Assembly (NCBI RefSeq): GCF_016863475.1
Contig: NZ_BOOY01000027.1
Span: 1 to 64,000 of the forward strand
Length of the DNA: 64,000 nucleotides
Origin: Spirilliplanes yamanashiensis
Lineage (GTDB): Bacteria; Actinomycetota; Actinomycetes; Mycobacteriales; Micromonosporaceae
Direction of reading: 5' to 3'
Part shown: piece by piece, positions 11,669 to 27,043 of the stretch
How the letters are laid out: the number at the start of each line of letters is the position of its first letter
Position numbering within the stretch: position 1 is the stretch's first letter
The notes under the pieces: model-generated
What the model was told of the DNA's origin: nothing
The model's database searches: none
What the model saw: only the letters and a program-made list of their open reading frames with translations
Translations under genes and position numbers: made by a program

Positions 11669-11745
11669 CCGCGCATCAGACCATTGATGCCCGTCGCCGA
11701 CAACACCTCCGTCGGCAATCGGCAGCGCGCGTGCCGCTCGCCGGG

Positions 11746-12420
11746 TCAGCCGCGCAGGGAGTAGTTCTGCGGCACTGGCAGCACGGCGAGGCAGACCACG
11801 TCGCCGCGGCCCGAGACGCGCGACAGCCACGTCGGCTCCAGGGGCACCGCGCGCGTGGAGCGGTCGGCGGCGGGAGCGTAGGCCGCGAGCCGGTCGGCGC
11901 AGGCGGCCGCGAGGAACTCGTCCTTGTCGTAGTCGTCGATGCGCGCCGGGTACGGGATGTCGCCGACGGAGACGACCTCCGCGGCGTGCGCCTCCCGGCA
12001 ACCGACCACGGGCAGCTCGGAGACCGTCGTCTCGGTGCCGAGCACCTCGACGCAGTCGCCCGGGCGCAGGTGGACGAGGCCCACCGGGCCGGCGGCGACC
12101 ACCCGGCCCGCCGCGTCGCGCGCGGGACCCCCGACCGGCCACAGGTTGAGGGCCAGCATGGCGGCGAGCGCCAGGGTGCCGGCGACCATCCCGGCCACGG
12201 CGATGCCGCGGCCCCGCTCCTGGCCGCGGCGGATCCGGGCAAGGGCGGCCAGGCCGAGGCCGATGCTCAGGGGCGCGCAGGCGGTGAGGGAGGTGGCCAG
12301 CGCGGCGACGGCGAGCCCGCTCAGCGGCGGCCGCGCCGCCGGTGAGGCGGCGGGCCGGCCGTCGGTCGCGTCGGCGGGCGGGGTGGTGGTCGGTTCGGCG
12401 TCGGGCACGACGCGGGACAC
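11746..12420 (-). CDS. DUF4190 / septum-formation-domain membrane protein
   Basis: 224 aa with a GTG start at 12420. A Pro/Ala-rich cytosolic N-terminus is followed by the DUF4190 helical pair (about residues 34-95: SGLAVAALATSLTACAPLS and GIAVAGMVAGTLALAAMLAL). The extracellular part begins LRPGDCVEVLG and contains VVGCREAHAAEVVSV, the Cys-bearing pattern of the septum-formation family (PF13845-like). The domain name comes from weak association data and no biochemical role is established. It is a paralog of the gene at 12467-13144, in the same orientation, 46 bp downstream of it. Confidence 0.8.
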   Translation of the reverse strand: MSRVVPDAEPTTTPPADATDGRPAASPAARPPLSGLAVAALATSLTACAPLSIGLGLAALARIRRGQERGRGIAVAGMVAGTLALAAMLALNLWPVGGPARDAAGRVVAAGPVGLVHLRPGDCVEVLGTETTVSELPVVGCREAHAAEVVSVGDIPYPARIDDYDKDEFLAAACADRLAAYAPAADRSTRAVPLEPTWLSRVSGRGDVVCLAVLPVPQNYSLRG

Positions 12421-13203: not shown

Positions 13204-14607
13204 TCACCAGCCCGACGGCGGCGCCTCCACGTGGACGGCCTTGGTCACCGTCAGCTCGTCGAGCAGCTCCGGGCCGTACCCGAAGCCCTGGCCGCTGGCG
13301 CGGCGCGGGTGCGCGGCGCCGCCCGGGGCGCCGCCGAACACCGCGTTGATCTTGACCGTGCCGGCGGGCAGGTCGCGCCAGGCGCGCTGGGCGTTGCTCA
13401 TCGACGGCGTCAGCACGGTCGCGGCCAGCCCGTACGGGGAGTCGGCGGCCCGGGCCAGGGCCTCGTCGAAGCTGTCGACCACCACGACGGGCGCGACCGG
13501 GCCGAACGTCTCCTCGCGCAGCACCGCCATGTCGTCGGTGCAGCCGGCCAGGACGGTCGGCGGGTACCAGGCGCCGGGGCCGGGCGGCACCTCGCCGCCG
13601 CAGCGGGCCGTCGCGCCGGCCGCGACCGCCGCCGTCACCTGGGCGTGCACGGCGTCGCGGTGGCGGGTGTCGACGAGCGGGCCGAGCCGGTCGGCCCACG
13701 CGCCGGCCTCGGCGACCAGGGCGTCGAGGAACGCGTCGGCGACGGAGCGGTGCACGTAGACGCGCTCGACGGCGACGCAGATCTGGCCCGAGTTGGCGAA
13801 CGCGCCCAGCGCCGCCTGCCCGGCCGCCCACGCCGGGTCAACCCCGGCGTCGACGATCAGCGGGTCGCTGCCGCCGTTCTCCAGCAGCGCCTTGGCGCCG
13901 GTGCGGGCGCACACCGCGGCGATGGCCCGGCCGGTGGCCGTCGAGCCGACGTGCGCGACCACGTCGACGTCGGCGCCGGTGAGCGCCGCGCCGACGCTGC
14001 CCGGGCCGGTGAGCAGCGACAGCACGCCGTCGGGCAGGTGCGGGGCGAGCGCCCGGACGACGGCGTGGCCGACGGCGGGGGTGCGCTCGCTCGGCTTCGA
14101 CACGACGGTGTTGCCGGTGACCAGGGCGGCGCCGATGAGCCCGCAGGTCACGGCGACCGGGTCGTTCCACGGGGTGATGGCCGCGACCACGCCGCGCGGC
14201 TGGTACGCCATCAGGTCGATCGCCTCGTCGTTGCCGGCCAGCGCGCGCCCGCGGTGCACGGGGCCCAGCTCGGCGTACTGGCGCAGCGTGCCGATGCCGG
14301 CGTCGATGCTGCCGCGGGCGTCGGCGACCGGCTTGCCCATCTCGGCGCGCATCAGCTCCGCGATGTCGTCGGCGGCGGCCTCCAGCGCGTCCGCGGCGGC
14401 GTGCACGGCGGCGGCGCGCGCGGCCGGCGCGGTGCGGGCCCAGCCGGGCTGCGCGTCGCGGGCCGCCTTCACGGCGGCGGCCACGTCGGACTCCGTCGCC
14501 ACCGGCACCCGGCTCACCGCGGCGCCGTCGACGGGGCTGCGGACCTCGAACGTGTCGCCCGCGGCGGGCGTCCAGACGCCCCCGATCAGCTGTTCCACCT
14601 CATGCAT
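13204..14607 (-). CDS. NAD(P)-dependent aldehyde dehydrogenase
   Basis: 467 aa from the ATG at 14607; a TTG six codons upstream (14625) is also in frame but less likely. It is a full-length ALDH: N-terminal NAD-binding fold with AAITPWNDPVAVTCGLIGAA, the glycine-rich turn HVGSTATGRAIA, catalytic general base Glu in LLENGGSDPLIVD, and nucleophile Cys in SGQICVAVERVYVHR. It would oxidise an aldehyde to the acid. The substrate is not deducible, although the sequence resembles broad-range and semialdehyde-type members. It is divergent from the heptose operon, with only 73 bp between the two start codons, so the two may share regulatory DNA. Confidence 0.9.
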   Translation of the reverse strand: MHEVEQLIGGVWTPAAGDTFEVRSPVDGAAVSRVPVATESDVAAAVKAARDAQPGWARTAPAARAAAVHAAADALEAAADDIAELMRAEMGKPVADARGSIDAGIGTLRQYAELGPVHRGRALAGNDEAIDLMAYQPRGVVAAITPWNDPVAVTCGLIGAALVTGNTVVSKPSERTPAVGHAVVRALAPHLPDGVLSLLTGPGSVGAALTGADVDVVAHVGSTATGRAIAAVCARTGAKALLENGGSDPLIVDAGVDPAWAAGQAALGAFANSGQICVAVERVYVHRSVADAFLDALVAEAGAWADRLGPLVDTRHRDAVHAQVTAAVAAGATARCGGEVPPGPGAWYPPTVLAGCTDDMAVLREETFGPVAPVVVVDSFDEALARAADSPYGLAATVLTPSMSNAQRAWRDLPAGTVKINAVFGGAPGGAAHPRRASGQGFGYGPELLDELTVTKAVHVEAPPSGW

Positions 14608-14680
14608 GTGGCGCGAATGCCCCAAAGAACTGCCGCCAAACTATGGTTTAGAACCGCTTGCCGGCGGTACTCGCAGCGCC

Positions 14681-16306
14681 ATGAAGGTGCTCGGGATCAA
14701 CGCCGTGTTCCACGACCCGGCGGCGGCGCTCGTCGTCGACGGGCGCATCGTCGCCGCCGCGGAGGAGGAGCGGTTCAGCCGCCGCAAGCACGGCAAGCGG
14801 CCGGTGCCGTTCTCCGCCTGGGAGCTGCCCGAGCTGGCCGCCGCGTGGTGCCTGGCCGAGGCAGGGCTGACGCCGGGCGAGCTGGACGCCGTCGCGTACT
14901 CGTTCGACCCGGCCCTGGCCGGCGACGTGTCGGCCAGCGACCCGTGGGACCACCTGCGCGTCGACTACGCCCGGCGGGCCCCGCAGTTCCTGGCCACCGC
15001 GCTGCCCGGGCTCGACCCGGAGCAGGTGCGGTTCGTGCCGCACCACGTCGCGCACGCCGCCTCGTCCGGCCTGGCGAACCCGCACGGCGACGGCGCCGTG
15101 CTGGTGCTCGACGGCCGCGGCGAGCGGGCCAGCCACCTCGGCGGGGTGTACCGGGACGGGCAGCTGGAGGTGCTGGCCGCGCAGGACCTGCCGCACTCGC
15201 TCGGCCTGCTCTACGAGGACCTGACCCGGCACCTGGGCTTCCTGCACTCCAGCGACGAGTACAAGGTGATGGCGCTGGCGTCGTTCGGCGAGCCGCGGTT
15301 CCTGCCGCTGCTGCGCGAGCTGATCCACGCCACCGACGACGGCGGCTTCCGGGTGGAGCGCATCGACTGGTCGGCGATGGCCAAGCCGGTCACCGACGGC
15401 ACGCTGACGGACGCGCACGCCGACCTGGCCTCCAGCATCCAGACCCGGCTGGAGGAGGTCATGCTCGACCTCGCCCGGTGGACCCACGACGCCGCCGGCG
15501 GCCCCGAGACGCTGACGATGGCCGGCGGCACCGCGCTGAACTGCGTGGCGAACGCGCGGATCGCCGCCGAGGGCCCGTACCGGCAGGTGTGGGTGCAGCC
15601 CGCGGCCGGCGACGCGGGCACCGCGCTCGGCGCCGCCCTGCACGTGGCCCGCGAGGCCGGCCCGGTCGAGCCGATGGCGGGCGCCGCCCTCGGGCGCGGC
15701 TGGTCCGACGAGGAGCTGGAGGCGGAGCTGCGGCGCGCCGCGCTGCCGTACACCCGGCCGGAGTCCATCGCCGCCGAGGCCGCCCGGGTGCTCGCCGACA
15801 ACGGCATCGTCGCCTGGTACCAGGGCCGCAGCGAGTACGGCCCGCGCGCGCTGGGCCACCGGTCGCTGCTGGCCCACCCCGGCGACCCCGACACCCAGAC
15901 CCGGATGAACGACGTCAAGGGCCGCGAGCAGTTCCGGCCGATCGCGCCGATGGTGCGCGCCGAGCGGTTCGCCGACATCTTCGACGGCGTCTACCCCAGC
16001 CCGTACATGCTGTTCGTGCACACCGTGAAGCCGGAGTGGAAGGACCGCATCCCGGCCGTCGTGCACGTCGACGGCACCGCCCGCGTGCAGACCGTCCACC
16101 CGGAGACCGAGCCGGTGGTGGCGGAGATGCTGGCCGAGTTCGAGCGGCTCACCGGGCTGCCGGTGGTGGTCAACACGTCGCTGAACACGGCCGGGCGGCC
16201 CATGGTGGACACCCCGCGCGAGGCGATGGAGCTGTTCGGATCGGCGCCCGTCGACCTGCTCGCGCTCGGGCCGTTCGCCGTGCACCGGGCCAAGGCGTTC
16301 GGATGA
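14681..16306 (+). CDS. Carbamoyltransferase, NodU/CmcH family
   Basis: 541 aa, first gene of the heptose operon. It opens KVLGINAVFHDPAAALVVDG with EEERFSRRKHGKRP close behind, the N-terminal ASKHA-fold domain of NodU/CmcH/TobZ enzymes. The metal-binding and transfer signature PHHVAHAASSG is also present. The C-terminal YrdC-like domain has SEYGPRALGHRSLLAHP, the region around REQFRPIAPMV, and VVNTSLNTAGRPMV. These enzymes use carbamoyl phosphate and ATP to put a carbamoyl group on a sugar or alcohol hydroxyl (Nod factors, cephamycin, tobramycin). Ribosome-site complementarity before the ATG is weak. Its stop overlaps the next start (ATGA at 16303). By context it most likely decorates the heptose product. 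Confidence 0.93.
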   Translation: MKVLGINAVFHDPAAALVVDGRIVAAAEEERFSRRKHGKRPVPFSAWELPELAAAWCLAEAGLTPGELDAVAYSFDPALAGDVSASDPWDHLRVDYARRAPQFLATALPGLDPEQVRFVPHHVAHAASSGLANPHGDGAVLVLDGRGERASHLGGVYRDGQLEVLAAQDLPHSLGLLYEDLTRHLGFLHSSDEYKVMALASFGEPRFLPLLRELIHATDDGGFRVERIDWSAMAKPVTDGTLTDAHADLASSIQTRLEEVMLDLARWTHDAAGGPETLTMAGGTALNCVANARIAAEGPYRQVWVQPAAGDAGTALGAALHVAREAGPVEPMAGAALGRGWSDEELEAELRRAALPYTRPESIAAEAARVLADNGIVAWYQGRSEYGPRALGHRSLLAHPGDPDTQTRMNDVKGREQFRPIAPMVRAERFADIFDGVYPSPYMLFVHTVKPEWKDRIPAVVHVDGTARVQTVHPETEPVVAEMLAEFERLTGLPVVVNTSLNTAGRPMVDTPREAMELFGSAPVDLLALGPFAVHRAKAFG

Positions 16307-17274
16307 TCAGCGTCGTCGTGCCCACGCTCGGGCGGCCGAGCCTGGCCGCCGTGCTGACGGCCCTGGCCACCGGCGAACGCCCCGCCGTGCCGGTCGAGGT
16401 GCTGGTGGTCGACGACCGGGCCGACCCGGTGGGGGAGCTGCCCGTGCCGGCGTCGCTGGCCGGGCTGGTCAAGGTGCTGCCCGGCCGCGCCGCCGGGCCC
16501 GCCGCCGCCCGCAACACCGGCTGGCGCGCCGCCGGGCACCCGTGGGTGGCGTTCCTCGACGACGACGTGGTGCCCGACGCCGACTGGCTGGTGCGGCTGC
16601 ACGCCGACCTGGCCGGCGTGCCGGCACGGGTGGGCGGCGTGCAGGGCCGCGTGGTCGTGCCGCTGCCGGCCGACCGGCGCCCCACCGACTGGGAACGGGT
16701 CACCGCGGCGCTCGCCGACGGCGACTGGATCACCGCCGACATGGCGTACCGGCGCGCGGCCCTCGCCGCGGTCGACGGCTTCGACGAGCGGTTCCCGCGC
16801 GCGTTCCGGGAGGACGCCGAGCTGGCCCACCGGGTCCGCAGCGCGGGCTGGGAGCTGGTGCGCGGCGAGCGCCGGGTGACCCACCCGGTGCGCCCGGAGA
16901 GCCGCTGGGTCAGCGTGCGCACCCAGCGCGGCAACGCCGACGACGCGCTGCTGCGCCGCCTGTACGGGCCGTCCTGGCGGGCCGTCCTCGACGTGCCCCC
17001 GGGCCGCCGGCGCCGCCACCTCGCCGTGACGGCCGCGGGCGCCGCGGCGCTGGCCTGCGCGGCGGCCGCCGCCGTGACCCGCCGCCGCGCCCCGGCGTAC
17101 GCCGCCGCGGCGGCCGGCGCGGCCTGGCTGACCGGCACGGCCGAGTTCGCCTGGGCCCGCATCGCCCCCGGTCCCCGCGACGCCCGGGAGGTGACCACCA
17201 TGCTCCTGAGCAGCGCAATCATCCCTGTCGCAGCGGTCGCGCACTGGACGCGGGGCTGGTGGACAAGTCGTTGA
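16303..17274 (+). CDS. Family 2 glycosyltransferase with C-terminal membrane helices
   Basis: 323 aa. A GT-A fold begins ISVVVPTLGRPSLAAVLTAL. It has the nucleotide-binding Asp-Asp of LVVDDRAD, the DXD metal motif in AFLDDDVVPDADWL, and the acceptor-side REDAELAHRVRSAGWEL, all standard for GT2. After about residue 230 two or three hydrophobic segments (VTAAGAAALACAAAAAV, YAAAAAGAAWLTG and MLLSSAIIPVAAVAHW) suggest anchoring to the membrane. It overlaps the carbamoyltransferase stop by 4 nt and the next gene by 1 nt, so all are translationally coupled. The donor and acceptor sugars are unknown. Confidence 0.9.
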   Translation: MISVVVPTLGRPSLAAVLTALATGERPAVPVEVLVVDDRADPVGELPVPASLAGLVKVLPGRAAGPAAARNTGWRAAGHPWVAFLDDDVVPDADWLVRLHADLAGVPARVGGVQGRVVVPLPADRRPTDWERVTAALADGDWITADMAYRRAALAAVDGFDERFPRAFREDAELAHRVRSAGWELVRGERRVTHPVRPESRWVSVRTQRGNADDALLRRLYGPSWRAVLDVPPGRRRRHLAVTAAGAAALACAAAAAVTRRRAPAYAAAAAGAAWLTGTAEFAWARIAPGPRDAREVTTMLLSSAIIPVAAVAHWTRGWWTSR

Positions 17275-18893
17275 TGTTTATCAGTGCTGGCCACGGGCAG
17301 GTACCCGGGGTGACGACACCCCCCGGGCTGTTCGACGCCGTCCTGTTCGACCGCGACGGCACCCTCGTGCACGACGTGCCGTACAACGGTGACCCGGCCC
17401 TGGTGGAGCCCGTCGCGGGCGCCCGCGCGGCGCTCGACCGGCTGCGCGCCGCGGGCCTGCGCCTCGGCGTCGTCACCAACCAGTCCGGCATCGCCCGCGG
17501 CCTGCTCACCCGTGCGCAGGCCGACGCCGTGAACGCCCGCGTCGAGGAGCTGCTCGGCCCGTTCGGCACCTGGCAGGTGTGCCCGCACGACGACGCCGCC
17601 GGCTGCGCGTGCCGCAAGCCCGCGCCCGGCCTCGTGCACGCCGCCGCCCGGGCGCTGGGCACCACCGCGGCGCGCTGCGTCGTCGTCGGCGACATCGGCC
17701 GCGACATGGGCGCCGCCCTGGCCGCGGGCGCCACCGGCATCCTCGTGCCGACACCCGTCACGCTGGCCGGCGAGGTCGCCGCCGCCCCGGCCGTGGCCGC
17801 CGACCTGCCCGCCGCCGTGGACGAGATCCTGCGCCGGCAGGCGTCCGTCGCCGCCGCCGGGCAACCGCGCCGCCGCCGCCACGTGCTCGTCGCCCGCCCC
17901 GACTCGGCGGGCGACGTCCTGCTGATGGGCCCCGCCTTCCGCGCCGTCGCCGCGCACGCCGACCGGGTCACGCTGCTGTGCGGGCCGCGCGGGCGCGCCG
18001 CCGCCGAGCTGCTGCCCGGCGTCGACGAGCTGATCGAGCACCGGCTGCCGTGGATCGACCCGCAGCCGCAACCGGTCGACCCGGCCGCGATGGCCGCGCT
18101 CACCGACCGCCTCGCCGGCTTCGACGAGGCGGTCGTGTTCACCTCGTTCCACCAGTCGGCGCTGCCACTGGCCCTGCTGCTGCGGATGGCCGGCGTGCCC
18201 CGCGTCTCCGCGATCAGCGACGACTACCCCGGCTCGCTGCTCGACGTGCGGCACCGGGTGCCGCCCGGCGTGCCCGAGCCGGAGCGGGCCCTGTCGCTCG
18301 CCGCGGCCGCCGGCTTCCCGCCGCCGCCCGGCGACGACCTCGCCCTGCGGCTGCGCGCCGACCGGGTCGTGCCGGGCGACCTGCCGCCCGGCTACGTCGT
18401 GGTGCACCCCGGCGCGTCCGTGCCCGCCCGCGCCGCGCCCGCCGGGCCGCTGCGCGCCGCCGTCGCGGCGCTGGCCGCGGCCGGGCACCGGGTCGTCGTC
18501 ACCGGCGGGCCCGCCGAGACGGCGCTGACCGCCGAGGTCGCCGGCGACGCCGGCACCGACCTGGGCGGCCGGCTGTCGCTGGGCGAGCTGGCGGGCGTGC
18601 TGGCCGCCGCGAGCTGCGTCGTCGTCGGCAACACCGGGCCCGCGCACGTCGCCGCCGCCGTGGGCACGCCCGTGGTCAGCCTGTACGCCCCGACCGTCCC
18701 GTACGGCCAGTGGGGCCCCTACCGCGTCCCGGCGGTGCGCCTGGGGGACGCGGCCGCGCCGTGCCGGGACACCCGGGCGAGCGTCTGCCCCGTCCCCGCT
18801 CATCCCTGTCTGTCCACTCTGGAGATTTCGGCCGTGGTCGCCGCGGTCGGGCTCCTGAGCGCGTCATCGAAGCCCGTGGAGGTCGCGGCGTGA
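17274..18893 (+). CDS. Fusion of GmhB-type heptose bisphosphate phosphatase and GT9 heptosyltransferase
   Basis: 539 aa from the ATG at 17274, which overlaps the preceding stop as TGATG; a GTG at 17310 after GGGCAGG is an equally reasonable start. Residues about 18-195 are a HAD phosphatase: LFDRDGTLVHDVPYNGDP (catalytic Asp pair), VTNQSGIARG, the zinc-binding CPHDDAAGCACRKPAPG and GDIGRDMGAAL. This is the full signature of D,D-heptose 1,7-bisphosphate 7-phosphatase. After an Arg-rich linker, residues about 205-525 are a GT-B family 9 transferase: VARPDSAGDVLLMGPAF, VVVHPGASVPAR, VVVTGGPAE and VVVGNTGPAHVAAAVGTPVV, as in ADP-heptose:LPS heptosyltransferases. Fusing the phosphatase to a transferase that would use the pathway's end product is unusual and supports the pathway assignment. 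Confidence 0.9.
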   Translation: MFISAGHGQVPGVTTPPGLFDAVLFDRDGTLVHDVPYNGDPALVEPVAGARAALDRLRAAGLRLGVVTNQSGIARGLLTRAQADAVNARVEELLGPFGTWQVCPHDDAAGCACRKPAPGLVHAAARALGTTAARCVVVGDIGRDMGAALAAGATGILVPTPVTLAGEVAAAPAVAADLPAAVDEILRRQASVAAAGQPRRRRHVLVARPDSAGDVLLMGPAFRAVAAHADRVTLLCGPRGRAAAELLPGVDELIEHRLPWIDPQPQPVDPAAMAALTDRLAGFDEAVVFTSFHQSALPLALLLRMAGVPRVSAISDDYPGSLLDVRHRVPPGVPEPERALSLAAAAGFPPPPGDDLALRLRADRVVPGDLPPGYVVVHPGASVPARAAPAGPLRAAVAALAAAGHRVVVTGGPAETALTAEVAGDAGTDLGGRLSLGELAGVLAAASCVVVGNTGPAHVAAAVGTPVVSLYAPTVPYGQWGPYRVPAVRLGDAAAPCRDTRASVCPVPAHPCLSTLEISAVVAAVGLLSASSKPVEVAA

Positions 18894-19837
18894 ACATCCT
18901 GCACTGGCACGTGCACGGCTCCTGGACGACGTCGTTCGTCCAGGGCAAGCACCGCTACCTGATCCCGGTCGACGACGAGCGCGGCCCGTACGGCCGCGGC
19001 CGCGCCCGCACCTGGGACTGGCCCGCCACGGCCGTCGAGGTGACCGCGGACCGGCTCGCCGCCGAGGACGTCGACGTCGTCGTCGCCCAGCGCCCCGAGG
19101 AGCTGGAGCTGGCCGAGCGCTGGCTCGGCCGCCGGGTGCCCGTCGTCTACGTCGAGCACAACACCCCCAAGGGCGACGTGCCGGCGAGCCGGCACCCGAT
19201 GGCGGACCGCGACGACCTGCTGCTCGTCCACGTCACCCACTTCAACGACCTGTTCTGGGACGCGGGCGGCACCCGCACCGCCGTCGTGGAGCACGGCGTC
19301 GTCGAGCCCGCCGCCCGCTGGACCGGCGAGCTCGACCGCCTCGCCGTCGTCACCAACGAGCCGGTGCGCCGCGGCCGGGTCACCGGCACCGACCTGTTCG
19401 GCCGGTTCGCCGCGGTCGCCCCGCTCGACGTGTTCGGCATGGGCGTCGCCGGACTGGCCGGCGAACCCGGCATCACCCCGCACGACGACCCGCCCCAGCA
19501 CGCCATGCACGCCCTGGTGGCGCAGCGGCGCGTCTACCTGCACCTGTGCCGGTGGACGTCGCTGGGGCTCAGCCTCATCGAGGCCATGCAGATGGGCATG
19601 CCCGTGGTGGCCCTGGCCACCACCGAGGCACACGAGGCCGTCCCGCCGGACGCGGGCGTGCTGAGCACCGACGCCGCGGCGCTCGTCGAGGCCACCCGGT
19701 GGCTGCTCGACGAGCCGGACGAGGCGGCCCGCCTCGGCGCCCGCGCGCGCCAGGTCGCCCTCGCCCGCTACGGCCTCGACCGGTTCCTCGCGGACTGGGA
19801 CCGCATCCTGGAGGACGAAGTATGCGCATCGCGCTGA
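18890..19837 (+). CDS. Glycosyltransferase, GT-B fold (GT4-like)
   Basis: 315 aa, GTG start in a GTGA overlap with the previous stop. The N-terminal half, NILHWHVHGSWTTSFVQGKH, is an atypical Rossmann domain. RVPVVYVEHNTPKGDVP and HVTHFNDLFWDAGGTRTAVVEHGV lie between. The C-terminal half has YLHLCRWTSLGLSLIEAMQM followed by GMPVVALATTEA, which is the donor-phosphate-binding E-x7-E-like region of GT4 enzymes. The donor is unknown. It lies between the GmhB-GT9 fusion and another GT4, overlapping the latter by 16 bp, so it belongs to the same operon and presumably to the same glycan. Confidence 0.85.
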   Translation: MNILHWHVHGSWTTSFVQGKHRYLIPVDDERGPYGRGRARTWDWPATAVEVTADRLAAEDVDVVVAQRPEELELAERWLGRRVPVVYVEHNTPKGDVPASRHPMADRDDLLLVHVTHFNDLFWDAGGTRTAVVEHGVVEPAARWTGELDRLAVVTNEPVRRGRVTGTDLFGRFAAVAPLDVFGMGVAGLAGEPGITPHDDPPQHAMHALVAQRRVYLHLCRWTSLGLSLIEAMQMGMPVVALATTEAHEAVPPDAGVLSTDAAALVEATRWLLDEPDEAARLGARARQVALARYGLDRFLADWDRILEDEVCASR

Positions 19838-21027
19838 TCTCCGAGCACGCCAGCCCGCTCGCCGCGCTCGGCGGCGAGGACGCGGGCGGGCAGAACACCC
19901 ACGTGGCCGAGCTGGCCGCCGCGCTGGCCGACGCCGGCAACGACGTGCGCGTCTACACCCGCCGCGACGACCCCGCGCTGCCCGAATGCGTCGCGGTGCG
20001 CCCCGGCGTCACGGTCGTGCACGTGCCCGCCGGGCCCGCCGAGCAGGTGCCGAAGGACGACCTGCTGCCGTACATGGGCGCCTTCGGCGACTGGCTCGCC
20101 GCCGCCTGGGGCGGCGACTGGCGCCCCGACGTCGCGCACGCGCACTTCTGGATGAGCGGGCTCGCCACCGTGAGCGCCGCCCAGCAGACCGGCGTGCCGG
20201 TGGTGCAGACGTACCACGCGCTGGGCGTCGTCAAGCGCCGCCACCAGGGCGACAAGGACACCAGCCCGGCGCAGCGCATTGGCTACGAGCGGGCCGTGGG
20301 GCGCGCCGTCGACGCGGTCGTGTCGCAGTGCCGCGACGAGACCGCGGAGCTGCTGCGGATGGGCGTGCCGGCGAACCGGATCGCGCTCATCCCGTCCGGC
20401 GTGGACCACGAGCGGTTCACCCCGGACGGTCCGGCCGAGCCGCGCGAGCCGGGCCGGCCGCGGATCCTGAGCGTCGGCCGGTTCGTGGAGCGCAAGGGCT
20501 TCCTCGATCTGGTCCGCGCCCTGCCGGCGGTGCCCGGCGCCGAGTGCGTCATCGTCGGCGGCGTGCCGGGCGACCCGCTGGCCGGGCGGCTGCGCGAGCT
20601 GGCCGCCGAGCTGGGCGTGGCGGACCGGCTGCGCCTGGTCGGCGCGGTGAAGCCCGGCGACATGGCCCGGTGGTACCGCTCCGCCGACGTGCTCGCCGCC
20701 ACCCCCTGGTACGAGCCGTTCGGGCTGACCCCGCTCGAGGCGATGGCGTGCGGCGTGCCGGTCGTCGGCACCGCCGTGGGCGGCCTGCGCGACACCGTCG
20801 TCGACGGCCTCACCGGCGACCTGGTGCCGCCGCGCGACCCGCGCGCGCTCGGCCTGGCGCTGCGCCGGCTGCTGCGCGACCCGGTGCGCCGGCTCGCCTA
20901 CGGCTCCGCGGCCCTCGACCGCGCCCGCAACTGTTACCCCTGGTCGCGCGCCGCGGACCAGCTGTCCACCCTGTACGCCCGCGTCAGCGGCGTGCGGGAC
21001 CGCGAGACGACGGGAGCCGTCGCGTGA
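19822..21027 (+). CDS. Family 4 glycosyltransferase
   Basis: 401 aa. The ATG at 19822 follows GGAGGACGAAG, which lies inside the end of the preceding gene. It is a full GT4: the N-terminal acceptor loop LGGEDAGGQNTHVAELAAAL (glycine-rich, as in sucrose-phosphate synthase and MshA-type enzymes), VAHAHFWMSG, QTYHALGVVKRRHQGDKD and IPSGVDHERF. The C-terminal donor domain has LSVGRFVERKGFLDLVRAL and the EX7E-like TPWYEPFGLTPLEAMACG. It probably uses a nucleotide-sugar to extend the cytoplasmic glycan with retention of configuration. The stop overlaps the gmhA start. The donor cannot be assigned; GDP-mannose and ADP-heptose are both possible. Confidence 0.92.
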   Translation: MRIALISEHASPLAALGGEDAGGQNTHVAELAAALADAGNDVRVYTRRDDPALPECVAVRPGVTVVHVPAGPAEQVPKDDLLPYMGAFGDWLAAAWGGDWRPDVAHAHFWMSGLATVSAAQQTGVPVVQTYHALGVVKRRHQGDKDTSPAQRIGYERAVGRAVDAVVSQCRDETAELLRMGVPANRIALIPSGVDHERFTPDGPAEPREPGRPRILSVGRFVERKGFLDLVRALPAVPGAECVIVGGVPGDPLAGRLRELAAELGVADRLRLVGAVKPGDMARWYRSADVLAATPWYEPFGLTPLEAMACGVPVVGTAVGGLRDTVVDGLTGDLVPPRDPRALGLALRRLLRDPVRRLAYGSAALDRARNCYPWSRAADQLSTLYARVSGVRDRETTGAVA

Positions 21028-21641
21028 TGAACCCCCTGGATGTGCACCTCGGGAACCTGTCGGCCGCGCTCGGCCCGTACCGCCAGGCGGCGGGCGTGCT
21101 GGCCGGCTGGGGCGAGCGGCTGGCCTGGACGCTGGGCCGGGGCGGCCGGCTGCTGACCGCGGGCAACGGCGGCAGCGCGGCCGAGGCGCAGCACCTGGCC
21201 GCCGAGCTGGTGGGCAAGCTGCGCGACGACCGCACCCCGCTGTCGGCCGTCGCCCTGTGCGCCGACTCGTCGGCGGTCACGGCCATCAGCAACGACTACG
21301 GCTTCGACGAGATGTTCGCCCGGCAGGTGCGCGGCCACGGCCGCCCCGGCGACGTGCTGCTGCTGATGAGCACCAGCGGCCGCAGCCCGAACCTGCTCGC
21401 CGCCGCCCGCGCCGCCCGCGAGTCCGGGCTGCACACGTGGGCGCTGACCGGGCCGGCCCCGAACCCGCTGGCCGAGCTGTGCGACGAGGTGCTCGCGTGC
21501 CCGTCGCCGGACTCGCAGGTGGTGCAGGAGCTGCACCTGGTCTCGGTGCACGTGCTGTGCGAGCACGTCGACCGCTGCCTGCCCACGGTGCTGGCGTGCG
21601 AGGAGGCGGAGCTGCTGGTCGGCGACGGGGTGGCCTCGTGA
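21027..21641 (+). CDS. gmhA: Sedoheptulose 7-phosphate isomerase (phosphoheptose isomerase)
   Basis: 204 aa, the family's normal size. It is a SIS-domain protein with RLLTAGNGGSAAEAQHLAAE (the substrate phosphate-binding loop and zinc-site residues of GmhA), ALCADSSAVTAISNDYGFDE, DVLLLMSTSGRSPN and the C-terminal QVVQELHLVSVHVLCEHVD with its metal-binding His. The enzyme converts sedoheptulose 7-phosphate to D-glycero-D-manno-heptose 7-phosphate, the first committed step to ADP-heptose. The ATG at 21027 shares its A with the preceding TGA. It is followed by hldE with a GTGA overlap. Confidence 0.95.
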   Translation: MNPLDVHLGNLSAALGPYRQAAGVLAGWGERLAWTLGRGGRLLTAGNGGSAAEAQHLAAELVGKLRDDRTPLSAVALCADSSAVTAISNDYGFDEMFARQVRGHGRPGDVLLLMSTSGRSPNLLAAARAARESGLHTWALTGPAPNPLAELCDEVLACPSPDSQVVQELHLVSVHVLCEHVDRCLPTVLACEEAELLVGDGVAS

Positions 21642-23014
21642 CCCGCCTGGTGATCGTGGGGGACACGCTGCTCGACGCGGACGTCGACGGCGCGGTGCGC
21701 CGCGTCGCCCCGGACGCGCCGGCGCCCGTGCTCGACCAGGAGCACGTCGCCGAGCGCCCCGGCGGCGCCGGCCTGGCCGCGCTGCTGGCCGCCGCGGACG
21801 GCCACGACGTCACGCTCGTCACGGCGCTGGCCGCCGACGCGCCCGCCGCCCGGATCACCGCCCGGCTGGCGGCCGCGGGGGTGCGGCTGTGCGCCCTGCC
21901 GGTGACCGGCACGACCCCGGAGAAGATCCGGCTGCGCGCCGACGGCCGGGTGCTGCTGCGCCTCGACCGCGGCGAGGGCGGCGACATCGGCCCCGCGCCC
22001 GACCTGGACTGCCTGCACACCGCGGACGCGATCCTGGTCAGCGACTACGGCCGCGGCGTGGCGGCGCACCCGGAGGTGCGGGCCGCGCTGACCGCCGCGA
22101 AGGCCCCGATCGTCTGGGACCCGCACCCGCGCGGGCCCGCCCCGGTGCCGGGCGTCCGGCTCGCCACCCCGAACGCGGCGGAGGTCCGGACGGCCACCGG
22201 CGCGGGCGGCACCGCCCTGGCCGCCGCCAGCCACGGCGGGCACGAGCTGCGCCGCCGCTGGCGGGCCGCGGCCGTCGCCGTCACCACCGGCGCGGCGGGG
22301 GCGGTGCTGTGCCACAGCGGCCCGACGCCGCTGGTGGTGCCCGCCCCGGCCGCCGCCGACGGCGACACCTGCGGCGCCGGCGACCGGTTCGCGGCCGCGG
22401 CCGCCGCCGCGCTGGCGTCGGGCGCCCTGGTCACCGAGGCCGTCCAGGCCGCGGTGGCCGCCGCCACCGCCTACGTCGCCGCCGGGGGAGTGGCCGCCGC
22501 GCTGGCGCCGCCGCCCGCGCCCGCCGAACCGGCCCGGCACGGCCACGACGACGCGGGCCGGCTCGCCGCCGAGGTCCGCGCCCGCGGCGGCACCGTCGTC
22601 GCCACCGGCGGCTGCTTCGACCTGCTGCACGCCGGGCACGTCGCCACCCTGGAGGCGGCCCGCTCGCTCGGCGACTGCCTGGTGGTGCTGCTGAACTCCG
22701 ACGCCAGCGTGCGCGGCCTCAAGGGCCCCGACCGTCCGCTCAACGACCAGCATGACCGGGCCCGGCTGCTCGCCGCGCTCGGCTGCGTCGACGCCGTCGT
22801 CGTGTTCGACGAGGCCACGCCCGAGGCGGCCCTGACCTGGCTGCGGCCGGACGTCTGGGTCAAGGGCGGCGACTACGACACCGTGCCCGAGTCGGCGCTC
22901 GTCGCCGGCTGGGGCGGCCAGACCGTGATCGTCCCCTACCTGGACGGCCACTCCACCACCACCATGATCGCCGCTGCCCGGGGCTCCCGGCAGCCGGAAG
23001 GAGCCACCCGATGA
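21638..23014 (+). CDS. hldE: Bifunctional heptose 7-phosphate kinase / heptose 1-phosphate adenylyltransferase
   Basis: 458 aa. Residues 1-295 are a PfkB/ribokinase-type kinase: LVIVGDTLLDADVDG, ERPGGAGLAALLAAADG, ILVSDYGRGV, and the catalytic loop DGDTCGAGDRFAAA with the GAGD anion hole. Residues about 325-458 are a cytidylyltransferase-fold domain with GGCFDLLHAGHVATLEAARS (HxGH motif), LNSDASVRGLKGPDRPLN and the PDVWVKGGDY end motif. This is the HldE/RfaE arrangement: it phosphorylates heptose 7-phosphate at O1 and, after GmhB removes the 7-phosphate, adenylylates the 1-phosphate to give ADP-D-glycero-beta-D-manno-heptose. The GTG start is coupled to gmhA. Confidence 0.95.
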   Translation: MTRLVIVGDTLLDADVDGAVRRVAPDAPAPVLDQEHVAERPGGAGLAALLAAADGHDVTLVTALAADAPAARITARLAAAGVRLCALPVTGTTPEKIRLRADGRVLLRLDRGEGGDIGPAPDLDCLHTADAILVSDYGRGVAAHPEVRAALTAAKAPIVWDPHPRGPAPVPGVRLATPNAAEVRTATGAGGTALAAASHGGHELRRRWRAAAVAVTTGAAGAVLCHSGPTPLVVPAPAAADGDTCGAGDRFAAAAAAALASGALVTEAVQAAVAAATAYVAAGGVAAALAPPPAPAEPARHGHDDAGRLAAEVRARGGTVVATGGCFDLLHAGHVATLEAARSLGDCLVVLLNSDASVRGLKGPDRPLNDQHDRARLLAALGCVDAVVVFDEATPEAALTWLRPDVWVKGGDYDTVPESALVAGWGGQTVIVPYLDGHSTTTMIAAARGSRQPEGATR

Positions 23015-23691
23015 CGTACCCCGTGCTGGTCACCGGCGGATCGAGCGGCCTCGGCGCCGCCGTCGTCACCGCCGTGCAGAAGGCGGGCGGCACCGCGGTC
23101 GTGATCGACCGGCAGCCGCCGGCCGACGGCGTCGAGTGGGTCGAGTGCGACCTCGCCGACACCCGCGCCGCCGAGGCCGCCACCCGCCGCGTGATCGAGT
23201 CCGCCGGCGGCCTGTCCGGCGTCGTCACCGCCGCCGGCATGGACGTGCCCGGCCGGCTCGAGGACGTGCCCGGCGACGTGTGGGACCGCATCGTCGCGAT
23301 CGACCTGCTGGCCACCGCCGCCGTGGTGCGCGCGGCGATCCCGGCGCTGCGCGAGTCGCACGGCACCGTGGTCACCGTGTCGTCGACGCTCGGCGTCAAG
23401 GCGGTCAGCGACGCCACCGCGTACTGCGCCGCGAAGTTCGGCGTCGTCGGCTTCACCCGCTCGCTGGCCGCCGAGCTGGCCGGGGCGGTCGGCGTCACCC
23501 TGGTCATCCCGGGCGGCATGCGCACGAAGTTCTTCGACGAGCGCGACGAGCAGTACAAGCCCGGCCCGGACGCGATCCTCAACGACCCCGCCAACGTGGC
23601 CGCCGCCATCCTGTTCGCGCTCAACCAGCCGCCCGGCTGCGCCGTCCGCGAGCTGGTCGTGGCCGCCGAGACGGAGACCTCGTACCCGTGA
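23011..23691 (+). CDS. Short-chain dehydrogenase/reductase
   Basis: 226 aa; the ATG at 23011 follows GGAAGGAG and overlaps the hldE stop. It is a classical SDR: nucleotide-binding VLVTGGSSGLGAAVVTA, Asp-based cofactor loop VEWVECDLADT, the catalytic Ser in VTVSSTLGVKAVSD and YxxxK in TAYCAAKFGVVGFTRSLAAE. It is not the extended-type SDR HldD (about 310 aa) that epimerises ADP-heptose at C6, so the L,D-heptose may not be made. By position it probably oxidises or reduces a position on the heptose or on another sugar of the product, which is inference. Confidence 0.9.
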   Translation: MTYPVLVTGGSSGLGAAVVTAVQKAGGTAVVIDRQPPADGVEWVECDLADTRAAEAATRRVIESAGGLSGVVTAAGMDVPGRLEDVPGDVWDRIVAIDLLATAAVVRAAIPALRESHGTVVTVSSTLGVKAVSDATAYCAAKFGVVGFTRSLAAELAGAVGVTLVIPGGMRTKFFDERDEQYKPGPDAILNDPANVAAAILFALNQPPGCAVRELVVAAETETSYP

Positions 23692-24617
23692 TCCTCGCCC
23701 TGCGGGCGCTGGGTCTCGGCGACCTGCTCACCGCGGTCCCGGCGCTGCGCGGCCTGCGCGCCGCGCTGCCGGGGCCGCTCGTGCTGGCCACCCCCGCGTG
23801 GCTGGCGCCGCTGGCCGCGCCGCTCGCCGACCGCCTGCTGCCCACCGCCGGCCTCGACGCCCCGCTGGACACCGACCGGCCGGAGGTCGCCGTCAACCTG
23901 CACGGCAGCGGCCCGGAGTCGCACCGCCTGCTGGCCGCCACCCGGCCGGGCGCGCTGTGGGCGTTCGGCAACGACCGCGCCGGGCACGCCGGCCCGGCCT
24001 GGCCCGCCGGCGACCACGAGGTCCGCCGCTGGTGCCGACTGCTGTCCTGGTACGGGGTCTCCGCCGACCCCGCCGACCTGCGCCTGCCGCCGCCCGAGGC
24101 GCACCCCGCCGTCGCCGGCGCCACGATCGTGCACCCGGGCGCGAAGTCCCCGGCGCGCCGCTGGCCGCCGCGCCGCTTCGCCGCCGTGGCCCGCCGGCTG
24201 GCTGCCGACGGCCACCACGTGGTGGTCACCGGCTCCGCCGCCGAGCGCGACCTGGCCCGCGCGGTGGCCGAGGCGGCCGGCCTGCCCGCCGACCGGGTGC
24301 TCGCGGGCGGCACCGGCATCGGCGAGCTGGCCGCGCTGGTGGCCGCCGCCCGCCTCGTGGTCAGCGGCGACACCGGCATCGCCCACCTGGCCACCGCGTA
24401 CGGCACGCCGTCGGTGGTGCTGTTCGGGCCGGTGCCGCCCCGGCTGTGGGGGCCGCCGCCGTCGCCGGTGCACCACGCCATCTGGCACGGCACCCGCGTC
24501 GACCGCGGCGACACCACCGCGCCCGGCGTCCACCCGGCCCTGCTGCGGGTCACCGTGCCGGAGGTCCTCGCCGCCGCGGAACGTGTTCAGCAAGCACTCA
24601 GCTCGCCGACAGGCTGA
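23688..24617 (+). CDS. Family 9 glycosyltransferase (heptosyltransferase-like)
   Basis: 309 aa with a GTG start in a GTGA overlap. It begins ILALRALGLGDLLTAVPALR, the N-terminal motif of WaaC/WaaF-like enzymes. It then has TIVHPGAKSPARRWPPRRFA (the donor-phosphate region HPGA-x-W-P), VVVTGSAAERDLARAVAEAA and LVVSGDTGIAHLATAYGTPS (D-T-G-x-A-H), all diagnostic of GT9. It is the second GT9 module in the operon, the first being fused to GmhB. The two could add successive heptoses. It is the last gene of the translationally coupled run; 29 bp later comes an unrelated start. Confidence 0.92.
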   Translation: MILALRALGLGDLLTAVPALRGLRAALPGPLVLATPAWLAPLAAPLADRLLPTAGLDAPLDTDRPEVAVNLHGSGPESHRLLAATRPGALWAFGNDRAGHAGPAWPAGDHEVRRWCRLLSWYGVSADPADLRLPPPEAHPAVAGATIVHPGAKSPARRWPPRRFAAVARRLAADGHHVVVTGSAAERDLARAVAEAAGLPADRVLAGGTGIGELAALVAAARLVVSGDTGIAHLATAYGTPSVVLFGPVPPRLWGPPPSPVHHAIWHGTRVDRGDTTAPGVHPALLRVTVPEVLAAAERVQQALSSPTG

Positions 24618-25164: not shown

Positions 25165-25770
25165 GTGACCGTCGACCCCGTCCGGCAGGCGTACGCCGCC
25201 GTCGCCGAGCTGTACATCGGACTGTTCGGCGCGGCCGACCGCGTGCACCCCGACGACCTGGCGTTCATCGGCCGGCACCTGGCCGGCCGGGCGGGCCCGG
25301 TGCTCGACGCCGGCTGCGGCCCCGGCCACCTCACCGGCCACCTGCGCTCCCTCGGCGCCGACGCGTCCGGCCTCGACCTGGTGCCGGAGTTCCTCGCCCA
25401 CGCCCGGGCGCGGCACCCCGGCGTGCCGTTCCGGCAGGGGTCGCTGACCGGCCTGGACGTCCCCGACGGCTCCCTGGCGGGCATCCTGGCCTGGTACTCG
25501 CTGATCCACCTGCCGCCGGACGACCTCGACGGCGTCCTCGCCGGGTTCCGGCGGGCGCTGGCCGGCGGCGGCGCGCTGGTAATCGGCTTCTTCGACGGCG
25601 ACGAGGTGGCCGCGTTCGACCACAAGGTCGTCACCGCTTACCGCCACCCGGCGGACGAGCTGGCCGGGCGGCTGCGCCGGGCGGGCTTCACGGAGGTGGA
25701 GCGGCTGCGCCGCCAGGCCGACGGCACCCACCGGCCGCTCGCCGCGATCGCCGCCACAGCTTCTTCCTAG
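25165..25770 (+). CDS. Class I SAM-dependent methyltransferase
   Basis: 201 aa with a GTG start at 25165. SAM-binding motif I is VLDAGCGPGHLTGHL, motif II is ASGLDLVPEFLAHARARHP, and the post-motif region ILAWYSLIHLPPDDLDGVLAG is typical of Methyltransf_11/25 enzymes. The substrate is unknown. The start lies just past a strong terminator and no separate promoter is obvious, so expression may depend on read-through or on a promoter within the hairpin region. Confidence 0.88.
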   Translation: MTVDPVRQAYAAVAELYIGLFGAADRVHPDDLAFIGRHLAGRAGPVLDAGCGPGHLTGHLRSLGADASGLDLVPEFLAHARARHPGVPFRQGSLTGLDVPDGSLAGILAWYSLIHLPPDDLDGVLAGFRRALAGGGALVIGFFDGDEVAAFDHKVVTAYRHPADELAGRLRRAGFTEVERLRRQADGTHRPLAAIAATASS

Positions 25771-25834
25771 GACGCTCTAGCGGGTGTGGCCGGGACCGCC
25801 CGTACTACGCTCGGCGGCGTCGGGGGAGGGGATC

Positions 25835-27043
25835 ATGTCGGTCACGGAGCTGCTGCTGAGGGTCCTCGCGGGCCTGCGCGGCACCGTCGCCGGCGCCGAC
25901 CCGCCGCCCGCCTCGCGCGGCCGGCTGGCGCGCAGCACACTGACCGCCGGCGCCTGCGTCGTCCTCGGCGTCGGCATGGCCATGGTCGCGTACAACGACC
26001 TCGCGGACGCGAACCTGATCGGCTGGCTGCGGCTGCTGCTGGCCGCCGGCATCGGCGCGCCGATCACCCTGCTGCCGCGCCTGCCGCTGGTGGCGTGGCG
26101 GATCGCCCTGCCGGTGGCCCTGGCCAGCGTGTTGATCGGCGTCGCGCCCGCCGGGGCGCCGCTGCCCTGGCACGCCGCGCAGCTGGTGTTCTTCCCGGTG
26201 GTGCTGTTCCTCGTGGCGCTGCGCCACCCCGGCCCGGTGGTGTTCTGGGTGTGGGCGGCCACCACCACGCTCGGCGTGCTCTGGACGGAGCCGGAGAACG
26301 TCGCCGGGCTGGTCATCGTGCTGACCCTGATCGCCGTGGTCGGCGACCAGGCCCGCCGCCGCGGCGAGGCGCAGCGCCGGCTGGTCGCCGAGCGCGAGGT
26401 CAGCGAGCTGGAACAGGCCCGCCGGGCGGTGCTGGAGGAACGCGCCCGCATCGCCCGCGAGCTGCACGACGTCGTGGCCCACCACATGTCGCTGATCGCC
26501 GTGCGGGCCGAGACGGCGCCGTTCCGGGTCACGGGCGGGCCGGAGGCGCAGGCGGCGGAGTTCGCGTCCATCGCGGGCGCGGCCCGGGAGGCGCTGGGGG
26601 AGATGCGCCGGCTGCTCGGGGTGCTGCGCAGCGAGTCCGGCGGGCCGGACCTGGCGCCGCAGCCGGGACTGGCGGACCTGCCCGCGATGGTGGCGGCCGC
26701 GCGCCGGGCGGGCCTCACGGTGGAGCTGGTGTGCCCGGCGACGGAGGTGCCGGAGGCGGTCGGGCTGTCCGCGTACCGGATCGTGCAGGAAGGCCTGTCG
26801 AACGCGACCCGGCACGCCGCGGGCGCGGCCGTGCGCATCGATGTGGTCGCGGACGACGCGGCGCTGGCCGTGACCATCCGCAACGACCGCCCGGACCGGC
26901 CGGCGGCGCCCGGCGCCGACGGCGCCGGCCTCGCCGGGATGCGCGAACGCGCGGCCGTGCACGGCGGCGAGGTGACCGCGGGCCCCACGCCCGACGGCGG
27001 GTACGAGGTGCGGGCCCGCCTGCCGCTGGGGGTGCCGGCGTGA
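25835..27043 (+). CDS. Sensor histidine kinase, NarL-type partner (HisKA_3)
   Basis: 402 aa from the ATG at 25835, preceded by GGGGGAGGGG. About five transmembrane helices fill residues 30-170 (including ACVVLGVGMAMVAYNDLA, LLLAAGIGAPITLLPRLPL, LVFFPVVLFLVAL and LVIVLTLIAVVG). A short coiled linker leads to the dimerisation/phosphoacceptor motif ARIARELHDVVAHHMSLIAV with His211. The ATPase part has GLSAYRIVQEGLSNATRHA (N box) and GAGLAGMRERAAVHGG (G box). There is no extracellular sensor domain, so it belongs to the intramembrane-sensing, cell-envelope type group. It overlaps the response regulator by 4 nt. Confidence 0.95.
   Translation: MSVTELLLRVLAGLRGTVAGADPPPASRGRLARSTLTAGACVVLGVGMAMVAYNDLADANLIGWLRLLLAAGIGAPITLLPRLPLVAWRIALPVALASVLIGVAPAGAPLPWHAAQLVFFPVVLFLVALRHPGPVVFWVWAATTTLGVLWTEPENVAGLVIVLTLIAVVGDQARRRGEAQRRLVAEREVSELEQARRAVLEERARIARELHDVVAHHMSLIAVRAETAPFRVTGGPEAQAAEFASIAGAAREALGEMRRLLGVLRSESGGPDLAPQPGLADLPAMVAAARRAGLTVELVCPATEVPEAVGLSAYRIVQEGLSNATRHAAGAAVRIDVVADDAALAVTIRNDRPDRPAAPGADGAGLAGMRERAAVHGGEVTAGPTPDGGYEVRARLPLGVPA

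Follow-up and report, generated by a model that had tools for sequence, protein, structure and literature searches.

We analyzed a 64,000-nucleotide stretch of the Spirilliplanes yamanashiensis genome (contig NZ_BOOY01000027.1, positions 1 to 64,000; hereafter the window), in which nine + strand genes at 14681-24617, overlapping or nearly abutting according to open reading frames (ORFs) and Pfam matches, form an operon with predicted heptose enzymes. Comparison at the sequence level gives good support to the view that this Micromonosporaceae operon is related to the Streptomyces coelicolor cwg operon, sharing a core with it rather than being identical. It is a variant of a known, little-studied operon type, and the analysis adds both a regulatory clue and a relative in another phylum. 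New here are SigB/SigF-type promoter-like sites at the operon 5' end and SigB/F-type sigma factor genes near diverse copies. We consider it likely, with a probability of about 0.72, that this cwg-related operon directs the synthesis of a stress-inducible, carbamoylated, heptose-containing envelope glycan or glycolipid.

The cwg operon was described in S. coelicolor in 2002 (Hong et al. 2002, as cited by PMC6767563 and PMC5839063; these and the other PMC sources are used here in excerpts). The genes SCO6179-SCO6190 are named cwg, with cwgH (SCO6186) given as a putative phosphoheptose isomerase and cwgI (SCO6187) as a putative bifunctional synthase/transferase (PMC5839063), and cwgE (SCO6183) is termed a putative heptosyl transferase (PMC5882110). 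The 12-gene operon is a sigma-E target, its vancomycin induction is partly sigE dependent, and its promoter has been given (PMC6767563). No paper treating cwg as a heptose pathway was found in the open-licence literature.

Two Streptomyces loci served for comparison. The first, on a plasmid (L124), comprises genes for an epimerase, a carbamoyltransferase, a glycosyltransferase of family 2 (GT2), a HAD protein, GT9, GT4, GT4, GmhA, HldE, GT9, and two more glycosyltransferases. The second (G391) has the same twelve genes, the last two being GT2. It carries a sequence that differs from the published sigma-E promoter of cwg at 2 of 29 positions, and a divergent PF01522 polysaccharide deacetylase gene, as described for SCO6178. 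When ten Streptomyces-type stretches were scanned for this promoter, the sole other match with at most 7 mismatches was one of 7, in G426. G391 was recognized as cwg by its promoter, its twelve genes and its divergent deacetylase, not by comparison with the SCO proteins themselves. The window shows nine collinear protein matches to G391 (55-71% identity; 71% for the carbamoyltransferase) and nine to L124 (50-69%). The order and orientation of the shared core, from the carbamoyltransferase to the second GT9, are those of cwg-type loci: as judged on L124 and G391, the order in cwg is likewise carbamoyltransferase, GT2, GmhB, GT9, GT4, GT4, GmhA, HldE, GT9. From this gene order and the promoter match in G391, we conclude that the window operon shares the cwg core. 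The cwg product is likewise a putative stress-responsive envelope glycan. There are also differences. In S. coelicolor cwgD and cwgE are separate, whereas the window fuses GmhB to GT9. Furthermore, cwg is driven by sigma-E, whereas the window has a site of the SigB/F type in that place and none of the sigma-E type was detected: a simple pattern scan of 14301-14700 gave one loose match only, at 14546 inside an aldehyde dehydrogenase gene.

The first gene (14681-16306, cwgB-like) encodes a predicted NodU/CmcH-type O-carbamoyltransferase (PF16861, 5.8e-65; PF02543, 1.1e-47) with Carbam_trans_N and Carbam_trans_C domains and the PDB relatives 7xb6, TobZ, and GdmN. Its HHxAHA motif is kept in 65 of the 68 loci with a match, and its score against the NCBIfam NodU equivalog is below the cut-off (204.6 versus 1000 bits). 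The second gene (16303-17274, cwgC-like) encodes a GT2 (PF00535, 4.5e-11, scored on a longer frame containing it) with a hydrophobic C-terminal segment (hydropathy peak of 2.05 at residue 240). The third (17310-18893, cwgD- plus cwgE-like; alternative start ATG 17274, 17310 being preferred) joins a GmhB-type heptose bisphosphate phosphatase to a GT9 heptosyltransferase (PF01075, 8.7e-21, and HAD families) in one open frame, and both are likewise fused in 70 of the 119 loci holding both, as judged from frames read stop to stop. The fusion protein matches 3l8h, 4pnh, 2gmw, and 3tov in the PDB; the best match of the HAD half, 3l8h, is named merely a putative HAD hydrolase, and 4pnh and 2gmw are heptose phosphatases. 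The GmhB half has the motifs DxDGT and CxH..CxCRKP, the latter present in 116 of 119 loci, and scores 107.5 bits with the PRK08942 GmhB model (cut-off, 178). Two GT4 genes follow: a short one (18890-19837, cwgF-like; PF00534, 6.1e-10), which was aligned across 18 copies and served as the operon marker, and an MshA-related one (19822-21027, cwgG-like; PF00534, 9.3e-34) with 245.4 bits against TIGR03449 MshA, below the cut-off of 462.5.

Next comes a predicted GmhA sedoheptulose-7-phosphate isomerase of the SIS type (21027-21641, alternative start GTG 21024; cwgH-like; PF13580, 4.3e-21). It matches the phosphoheptose isomerase 1tk9 (5.4e-42), has a GNGGSA motif found in 119 of 120 loci, and reaches 158.7 bits with TIGR00441 (cut-off, 209.45). 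HldE (21638-23014, cwgI-like; PF00294, 7.3e-25; PF01467, 1.4e-15) would combine heptose-7-phosphate kinase and heptose-1-phosphate nucleotidyltransferase, its PDB matches being 4e84 (kinase) and 5x9q (nucleotidyltransferase). The whole protein scores 260.6 bits with PRK11316 (cut-off, 521), the nucleotidyltransferase domain comes nearest to its cut-off (TIGR02199, 175.8 versus 181.5 bits), and the kinase domain falls far below (TIGR02198, 126.5 versus 345 bits). Its motifs are kept in most of the 117 loci (GAGD in 114, KGGDY in 111, HxGH in 96, and STT in 98). The last two genes encode a classical SDR oxidoreductase (23011-23691; PF00106, 3.2e-34) that is not HldD, with the Y...K motif in all 105 loci with a match, and a second GT9 heptosyltransferase (23688-24617, cwgJ-like; PF01075, 5.8e-27). 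These two GT9s are the only ones matched in the whole genome (6.5 Mb). Best-family Pfam E-values per operon gene range from 6e-10 to 6e-65. Adjoining genes overlap by 1-16 bases, with the sole exception of a 35-base gap behind the GT2 gene when 17310 is taken as the fusion start. Because the NCBIfam equivalog cut-offs were not reached, the enzyme names depend on homology and on conserved motifs that we take to be the catalytically relevant ones. The original prediction, made from the sequence alone, had listed a carbamoyltransferase, GT2, GmhB, two GT9s, two GT4s, GmhA, HldE, and an SDR. All of them lie where it had placed them and its nine-gene inventory is complete, although it had missed the fusion of the phosphatase to the first GT9.

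The pathway genes co-occur. Among 126 stretches, most of which were picked for the marker GT4 or HldE, 117 have HldE, 120 GmhA, 119 GmhB, and 123 and 117 the two GT9s. The operon very probably builds a sugar chain containing heptoses. No HldD above the cut-off was found in the genome (best score 117.5 versus 274.6 bits), which makes a D,D-heptose donor probable and an L,D-heptose unlikely. As for the nucleotide, an arginine at the fifth position of (F/L)XXGXSTT permits CDP- and UDP-heptose too (PMC11461863). Such an arginine before STT (GRSTT form) is found in the HldE tail of 79 of 117 homologues, and the window protein has a histidine (GHSTT). The complete ADP-D,D-heptose route proposed earlier is plausible, with no HldD over the cut-off, but unproven; homologues with their catalytic motifs are in place, and their scores lie below the equivalog cut-offs. 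The accompanying remark that ADP-heptose in an actinomycete would be noteworthy has been anticipated in print: a commentary on Tang et al. 2024 (PMC11461863) already describes wide production of nucleoside diphosphate (NDP)-heptoses outside the Gram-negative bacteria and their activity as immune agonists.

Upstream of the first gene, a SigB/SigF-type promoter-like site (GTTTAG...CGGTAC, that is, GTTT-N15-CGGTAC) at 14646-14670 (+) agrees with 9 of 10 consensus positions and ends 10 bases ahead of the ATG. When the 80-base upstream region was shuffled with its dinucleotides preserved, 0.5% of the shuffled versions scored as well or better. The consensus, of the GTTT-N12-15-GGGnAn type, and the Streptomyces examples were taken from PMC8346170, which mentions neither "cwg" nor "SCO6179"; the motif had been spotted by eye in upstream sequences before scoring. 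In the whole window, both strands together have 8 such sites scoring 9 or more. A second, weaker site (GTTTAT-N13-GGGCAG; 8 of 10 positions) lies ahead of gmhB at 17276-17300 (+), at the position of an invariant Micromonospora site. Generic sigma-70 promoters and terminators were also looked for, and none was found. The sequence match likely represents a SigB/SigF-type promoter before the first gene, which looks like a general-stress switch.

The relatives point in the same direction. At the carbamoyltransferase start of 67 loci, the window included, 30 sites reach a score of 8 or more, against an expectation of 5.4 from shuffles, and 10 reach 9 or more, against 0.5; without two doubles, the counts are 29 and 10 of 65. 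Among genes of the 40 control stretches 50 of 708 score at least 8 and 4 at least 9, and among the other operon genes 17 and 5 of 143. The excess at the carbamoyltransferase start is evident, although it shrinks when set against the nonoperon genes of the operon's own neighborhoods, the nearest background. The evidence is firmer in Micromonosporaceae loci lacking the carbamoyltransferase, in which the site stands before gmhB. The strict form GTTTA[C/G]-N11-15-GGGAAC has 35 matches on both strands of 1.15 Mb of named loci, 34 of them directly before gmhB; among the Micromonosporaceae loci L043-L104, it precedes gmhB in 32 of 32 loci of at least 15 kb without a carbamoyltransferase and in 2 of 24 with one. 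In a looser scan, 28 of 28 hand-picked loci without the carbamoyltransferase score at least 9 within 220 bases, versus 11 of 691 control genes. These loci are mostly from one genus and not independent, yet the spacer varies while both elements stay constant. In most of the Micromonosporaceae loci, only 15-17 bases separate the beginning of the -10 element from the carbamoyltransferase start, a proximity that suggests leaderless transcripts; in Microbispora and Planobispora, it lies 34-38 bases from the start. Many Actinoplanes- and Micromonospora-type loci among L043-L061 share a conserved block, GAGAAGTCGATGATC, upstream of the stress-type -10, which is perhaps an operator.

We also asked which genes accompany the operon in 20 diverse neighborhoods, with 40 control stretches of half their length drawn from 10 of those 20 genomes. 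SigB/F-type sigma genes lie near 6 of the 20 copies versus 0 of 40 controls, and the two of these six that were checked exceed the NCBIfam SigBFG cut-off; nine close sigma genes of the SigB/F type are present in the genome of the window itself. DUF892 was found near 3 of 20 copies (0 of 40 controls). The queries for both were added after unbiased clustering had shown them. A cwgA-type epimerase gene is near 7 of 20 copies versus 0 of 40 controls (p = 0.004 with equal-length paired controls), and an extra GT2 gene near 10 of 20 versus 0 of 40. In S. coelicolor, cwgA and SCO6178 rise on salt and sigE does not (PMC13011467), and a heptosyltransferase in Frankia, which need not belong to this operon, also rises on salt (PMC5563000). 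That a SigB-type promoter accounts for the sigma-E-independent salt induction of cwg is speculation.

A general "stress island", suggested by neighbors in L124, L126, and L127, was considered as well, but such neighbors hardly recur in the 20 diverse loci: ANTAR, catalase, DUF2795, and CBS were each found once (CBS versus 1 control), Zn alcohol dehydrogenase four times (2 of 40 controls), and phasin not at all.

What is observed, then, is the gene content and its conservation, the kinship with cwg, and the promoter-like sites. From these a scheme can be proposed, whose reactions are inferred from homology and the established pathway; its sugars, acceptor, site of carbamoylation, and induction by stress in this host are likewise inferred. 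GmhA would convert sedoheptulose 7-phosphate to D,D-heptose 7-phosphate, the HldE kinase domain would form the 1,7-bisphosphate, the GmhB half of the fusion would strip the 7-phosphate to leave the 1-phosphate, and the HldE nucleotidyltransferase domain would yield NDP-D-glycero-D-manno-heptose, most likely ADP-heptose. The D,D form would probably be used as such. The two GT9s would add heptose, and the two GT4s and the GT2, which its hydrophobic C-terminal segment suggests to be membrane associated, would add other sugars, building a short chain on an acceptor that is either a membrane component or a small molecule; the MshA-like GT4 could begin the chain on a small polar acceptor. The carbamoyltransferase would cap a sugar hydroxyl. 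Transcription would start from the SigB/SigF-type general-stress promoter right before the first start codon, so that osmotic or envelope stress would trigger synthesis of the glycan, consistent with the response of S. coelicolor cwg to sigma-E and salt. As cwg is under sigma-E control, we favor a glycan or glycolipid of the envelope. Together with the spread of the marker through the phylum and the homologous Burkholderiaceae set, this reading as a heptose pathway with a likely stress promoter points to the compounds to seek (NDP-heptose and a heptose chain bearing a carbamoyl group), to salt or wall stress as the condition, and to tractable strains for the search. ALPK1 agonists would be present in many soil actinomycetes if NDP-heptoses accumulate in them.

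Several observations weigh against such a stress-inducible envelope glycan. GmhA, GmhB, HldE, and both GT9s are all below the NCBIfam equivalog cut-offs, and their substrates could differ. The window operon does not comprise the full S. coelicolor set, which begins with the epimerase cwgA and ends with the GT2s cwgK and cwgL, as it has no counterparts of these three; a 59% match to the cwgA-type epimerase elsewhere in the own genome has one stop within the matched stretch. Conversely, the SDR of the window has no match in the Streptomyces copies L105, L119, L124, and G391. The carbamoyltransferase is dispensable for the core function, since 9 of 9 tested Micromonosporaceae genomes whose operon lacks it have no close relative of it (43% identity at best). 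Regarding regulation, 37 of the 67 loci, G391 included, have no site scoring at least 8 within 80 bases of the carbamoyltransferase, and the nonoperon genes of L023-L042 and the window are not low in such sites (31 of 224 at least 8; 12 of 224 at least 9). The sigma-gene result weakens to p = 0.010 with equal-length paired controls (0 of 20), and two of the six cases are from one genus. Finally, queries for CsbD, STAS, PP2C, BON, and hemerythrin gave nothing in the 20 diverse neighborhoods.

The main rival is a soluble product, namely, a stress-protective oligosaccharide or a glycosylated small molecule resembling a compatible solute or redox cofactor instead of a wall glycan. Here, the MshA-like GT4 would start on, e.g., inositol phosphate and the other glycosyltransferases would extend the product. 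The best NCBIfam match of the second GT4 is indeed MshA, a small-molecule glycosyltransferase, though below the cut-off. Moreover, no flippase, polymerase, or exporter was recognized by eye among the families present in at least 3 of the 20 diverse loci, the sole exporter-type family being an ABC ATPase (3 of 20 versus 5 of 40 controls), the SigB/F-type sites and salt induction fit osmoprotection, and the gene set occurs in both Gram-positive and Gram-negative hosts. On the other hand, two heptosyltransferases and three other glycosyltransferases suggest a chain of several sugars, the GT2 has its hydrophobic C-terminal segment, and cwg in S. coelicolor is driven by the envelope-stress factor sigma-E. 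We regard a soluble product as rather unlikely, but as a possibility to be taken seriously.

The remaining rivals concern the sugar and the kind of cluster. It is improbable that GmhA, HldE, and GmhB act on another sugar phosphate to give a non-heptose NDP-sugar that is then moved by the GT9s. The scores below the cut-offs, above all that of the kinase domain, would allow it, but the three pathway enzymes and two GT9s co-occur, the catalytic motifs are kept, the nucleotidyltransferase domain is just below the heptose-specific cut-off, and the domain matching that of HldE is annotated as rfaE2 in four Streptomyces plasmids, of which the one read (L124) has this operon. Very improbable is a biosynthetic cluster for a heptose antibiotic of the hygromycin B or septacidin sort. 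These two antibiotics exemplify actinomycete use of NDP-heptose, and NDP-heptose genes and carbamoyltransferases are also found in antibiotic clusters. The host is an actinomycete with both kinds of genes, and L039 shows that within the same bacterial family an HldE relative can stand in a different gene setting. However, the marker occurs across the phylum and in Burkholderiaceae, the operon matches cwg, and, consistent with what had been claimed before, no antibiotic core gene was recognized when 41 ORFs of the window were scanned with Pfam (positions up to 57 kb, apart from some of the shorter ORFs), the operon included. The earlier preference for a heptose-containing, probably carbamoylated glycan or glycolipid over an antibiotic is thus supported, together with the NDP-heptose route.

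Other systems use homologous enzymes. GmhA, HldE, GmhB, and GT9 have homologues in the Gram-negative ADP-heptose pathway for the lipopolysaccharide (LPS) core (GmhA, HldE, GmhB, HldD, and WaaC/WaaF); in contrast to that pathway, the window genome has no HldD over the cut-off and its enzymes are below the equivalog cut-offs. In the Pseudomonas LPS core, a 7-O-carbamoyl heptose (WapO) is known, with the carbamoyltransferase linked to heptosyltransferases in an outer-membrane setting. Judging from its kinship, the host presumably lacks LPS.

Closer to the window is a cluster on plasmids of the Gram-negative Burkholderia multivorans and Paraburkholderia sp. FT54 (GmhB-GT9-carbamoyltransferase-GT2-GT9-GT4), with seven homologues of window genes. 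In the two loci read, GmhB, two GT9s, carbamoyltransferase, GT2, short GT4, and a second GT4 are 35-48% identical to the window proteins, the Paraburkholderia carbamoyltransferase reaching 48%. The cluster includes a UDP-glucuronate-decarboxylase-family gene, and the Paraburkholderia epimerase shares 49-51% identity with two actinobacterial genes of the cwgA type; other neighbors are hemerythrin, Mn catalase, BON, and CsbD genes. The two 25-kb stretches contain no match to GmhA or HldE, and ADP-heptose may be supplied by the LPS pathway of the host. Only tentatively, we suggest a general-stress heptose glycan common to Actinomycetota and Burkholderiaceae: one ancestral set (GmhB, two GT9s, GT2, two GT4s, carbamoyltransferase, and a UDP-xylose-type epimerase) might make a D,D-heptose oligosaccharide or glycolipid that is short, carbamoylated, and distinct from both LPS and teichoic acid; it would be switched on by factors of the SigB/SigF or sigma-E type and protect against osmotic and envelope stress.

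The operon type is widespread. When 61 genomes from the family and order were searched, the own genome among them, 30 proved to have HldE relatives, not all of which belong to this operon. The short GT4 marker occurs in 39 of 396 sampled genomes of the phylum (1e-30), with seven of the 39 scoring much lower. The six-gene core of GmhB, GT9, GT4, GT4, GmhA, and HldE is present in 19 of 20 fetched relative loci. The exception is L039, in which an HldE relative (52%) at about 9164-10507 has only distant carbamoyltransferase and GT2 matches around it, perhaps a different heptose pathway. Among the best 80 of 576 confirmed matches to the marker in named genomes, the genera included Actinoplanes, Micromonospora, Dactylosporangium, Salinispora, Streptomyces, Microbispora, Planobispora, Nocardiopsis, Pseudonocardia, and Motilibacter, an Acidimicrobiales bin was also present, and the nearest copies to the window were from Actinoplanes, Phytohabitans, and Micromonospora. 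Of 14 plasmid-collection records with the marker, ten are from Burkholderia, Paraburkholderia, Caballeronia, or Cupriavidus. The view of the operon as a striking isolated case is not supported in light of its cwg kinship, the phylum-wide marker, and the homologous Burkholderiaceae set.

The carbamoyltransferase is present in 8 of the 20 fetched stretches, and the SDR or the second GT9 is lacking in some. In the nine Micromonosporaceae genomes without it at the operon, no close relative was found elsewhere (five have one at 39-43% identity and four none at 1e-40), which argues that carbamoylation is not essential to the core function. By sequence comparison, the carbamoyltransferase and GT2 are a removable module. 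On a single contig, Micromonospora mirobrigensis carries two heptose operons, of which one includes this module and the other lacks it (L077 and L099). On plasmids, the core was found without a carbamoyltransferase match but with a second partial HldE match in Arthrobacter sp. StoSoilB13 (L125, 7200-17000; 1-Mb plasmid); the cluster can therefore be plasmid borne. The mobilizable Clavibacter californiensis plasmid pCCa (L123, 12001-14000) has a short GT4 copy and a 31% GT9-like match, with no matches to the remaining operon genes in the 19-kb stretch, possibly a remnant or partial transfer.

Upstream, a divergent aldehyde dehydrogenase gene (13204-14625, - strand; PF00171, 3.2e-120) shares a 55-base upstream region with the operon. 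Such a gene is found in 6 of 20 relative loci and in 4 of 20 diverse loci versus 1 of 40 controls (p = 0.04; p = 0.17 with equal-length paired controls), and it is doubtful that it belongs to the operon system. Downstream, a continuation into the methyltransferase and two-component genes at 25165-27708 is disfavored, these partners being rarely near other copies. The methyltransferase has no match among L023-L127, and the kinase and regulator together have matches (40-51%) only near two Microbispora copies (L109 and L121), with one further regulator match (36%) in L106. Response regulators of this family are near 7 of 20 diverse copies versus 6 of 40 half-length controls, with no clear excess, and the genes are probably outside the operon. 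A 94-base tRNA-Asp call by ARAGORN at 14702-14795 lies inside the carbamoyltransferase gene and is probably a false positive. Farther upstream, a long KatE-type catalase gene is located at 4910-7171, about 7.5 kb from the operon; related catalases are present in L032, L034, and L038, but a catalase occurs in only the one diverse neighborhood mentioned above. Between this gene and the aldehyde dehydrogenase gene lie a GH18 gene (7194-8369, - strand) and a glucodextranase/GH15-type glucosidase gene (8408-12142, - strand), the latter with a Pfam SLH-like C-terminal module.

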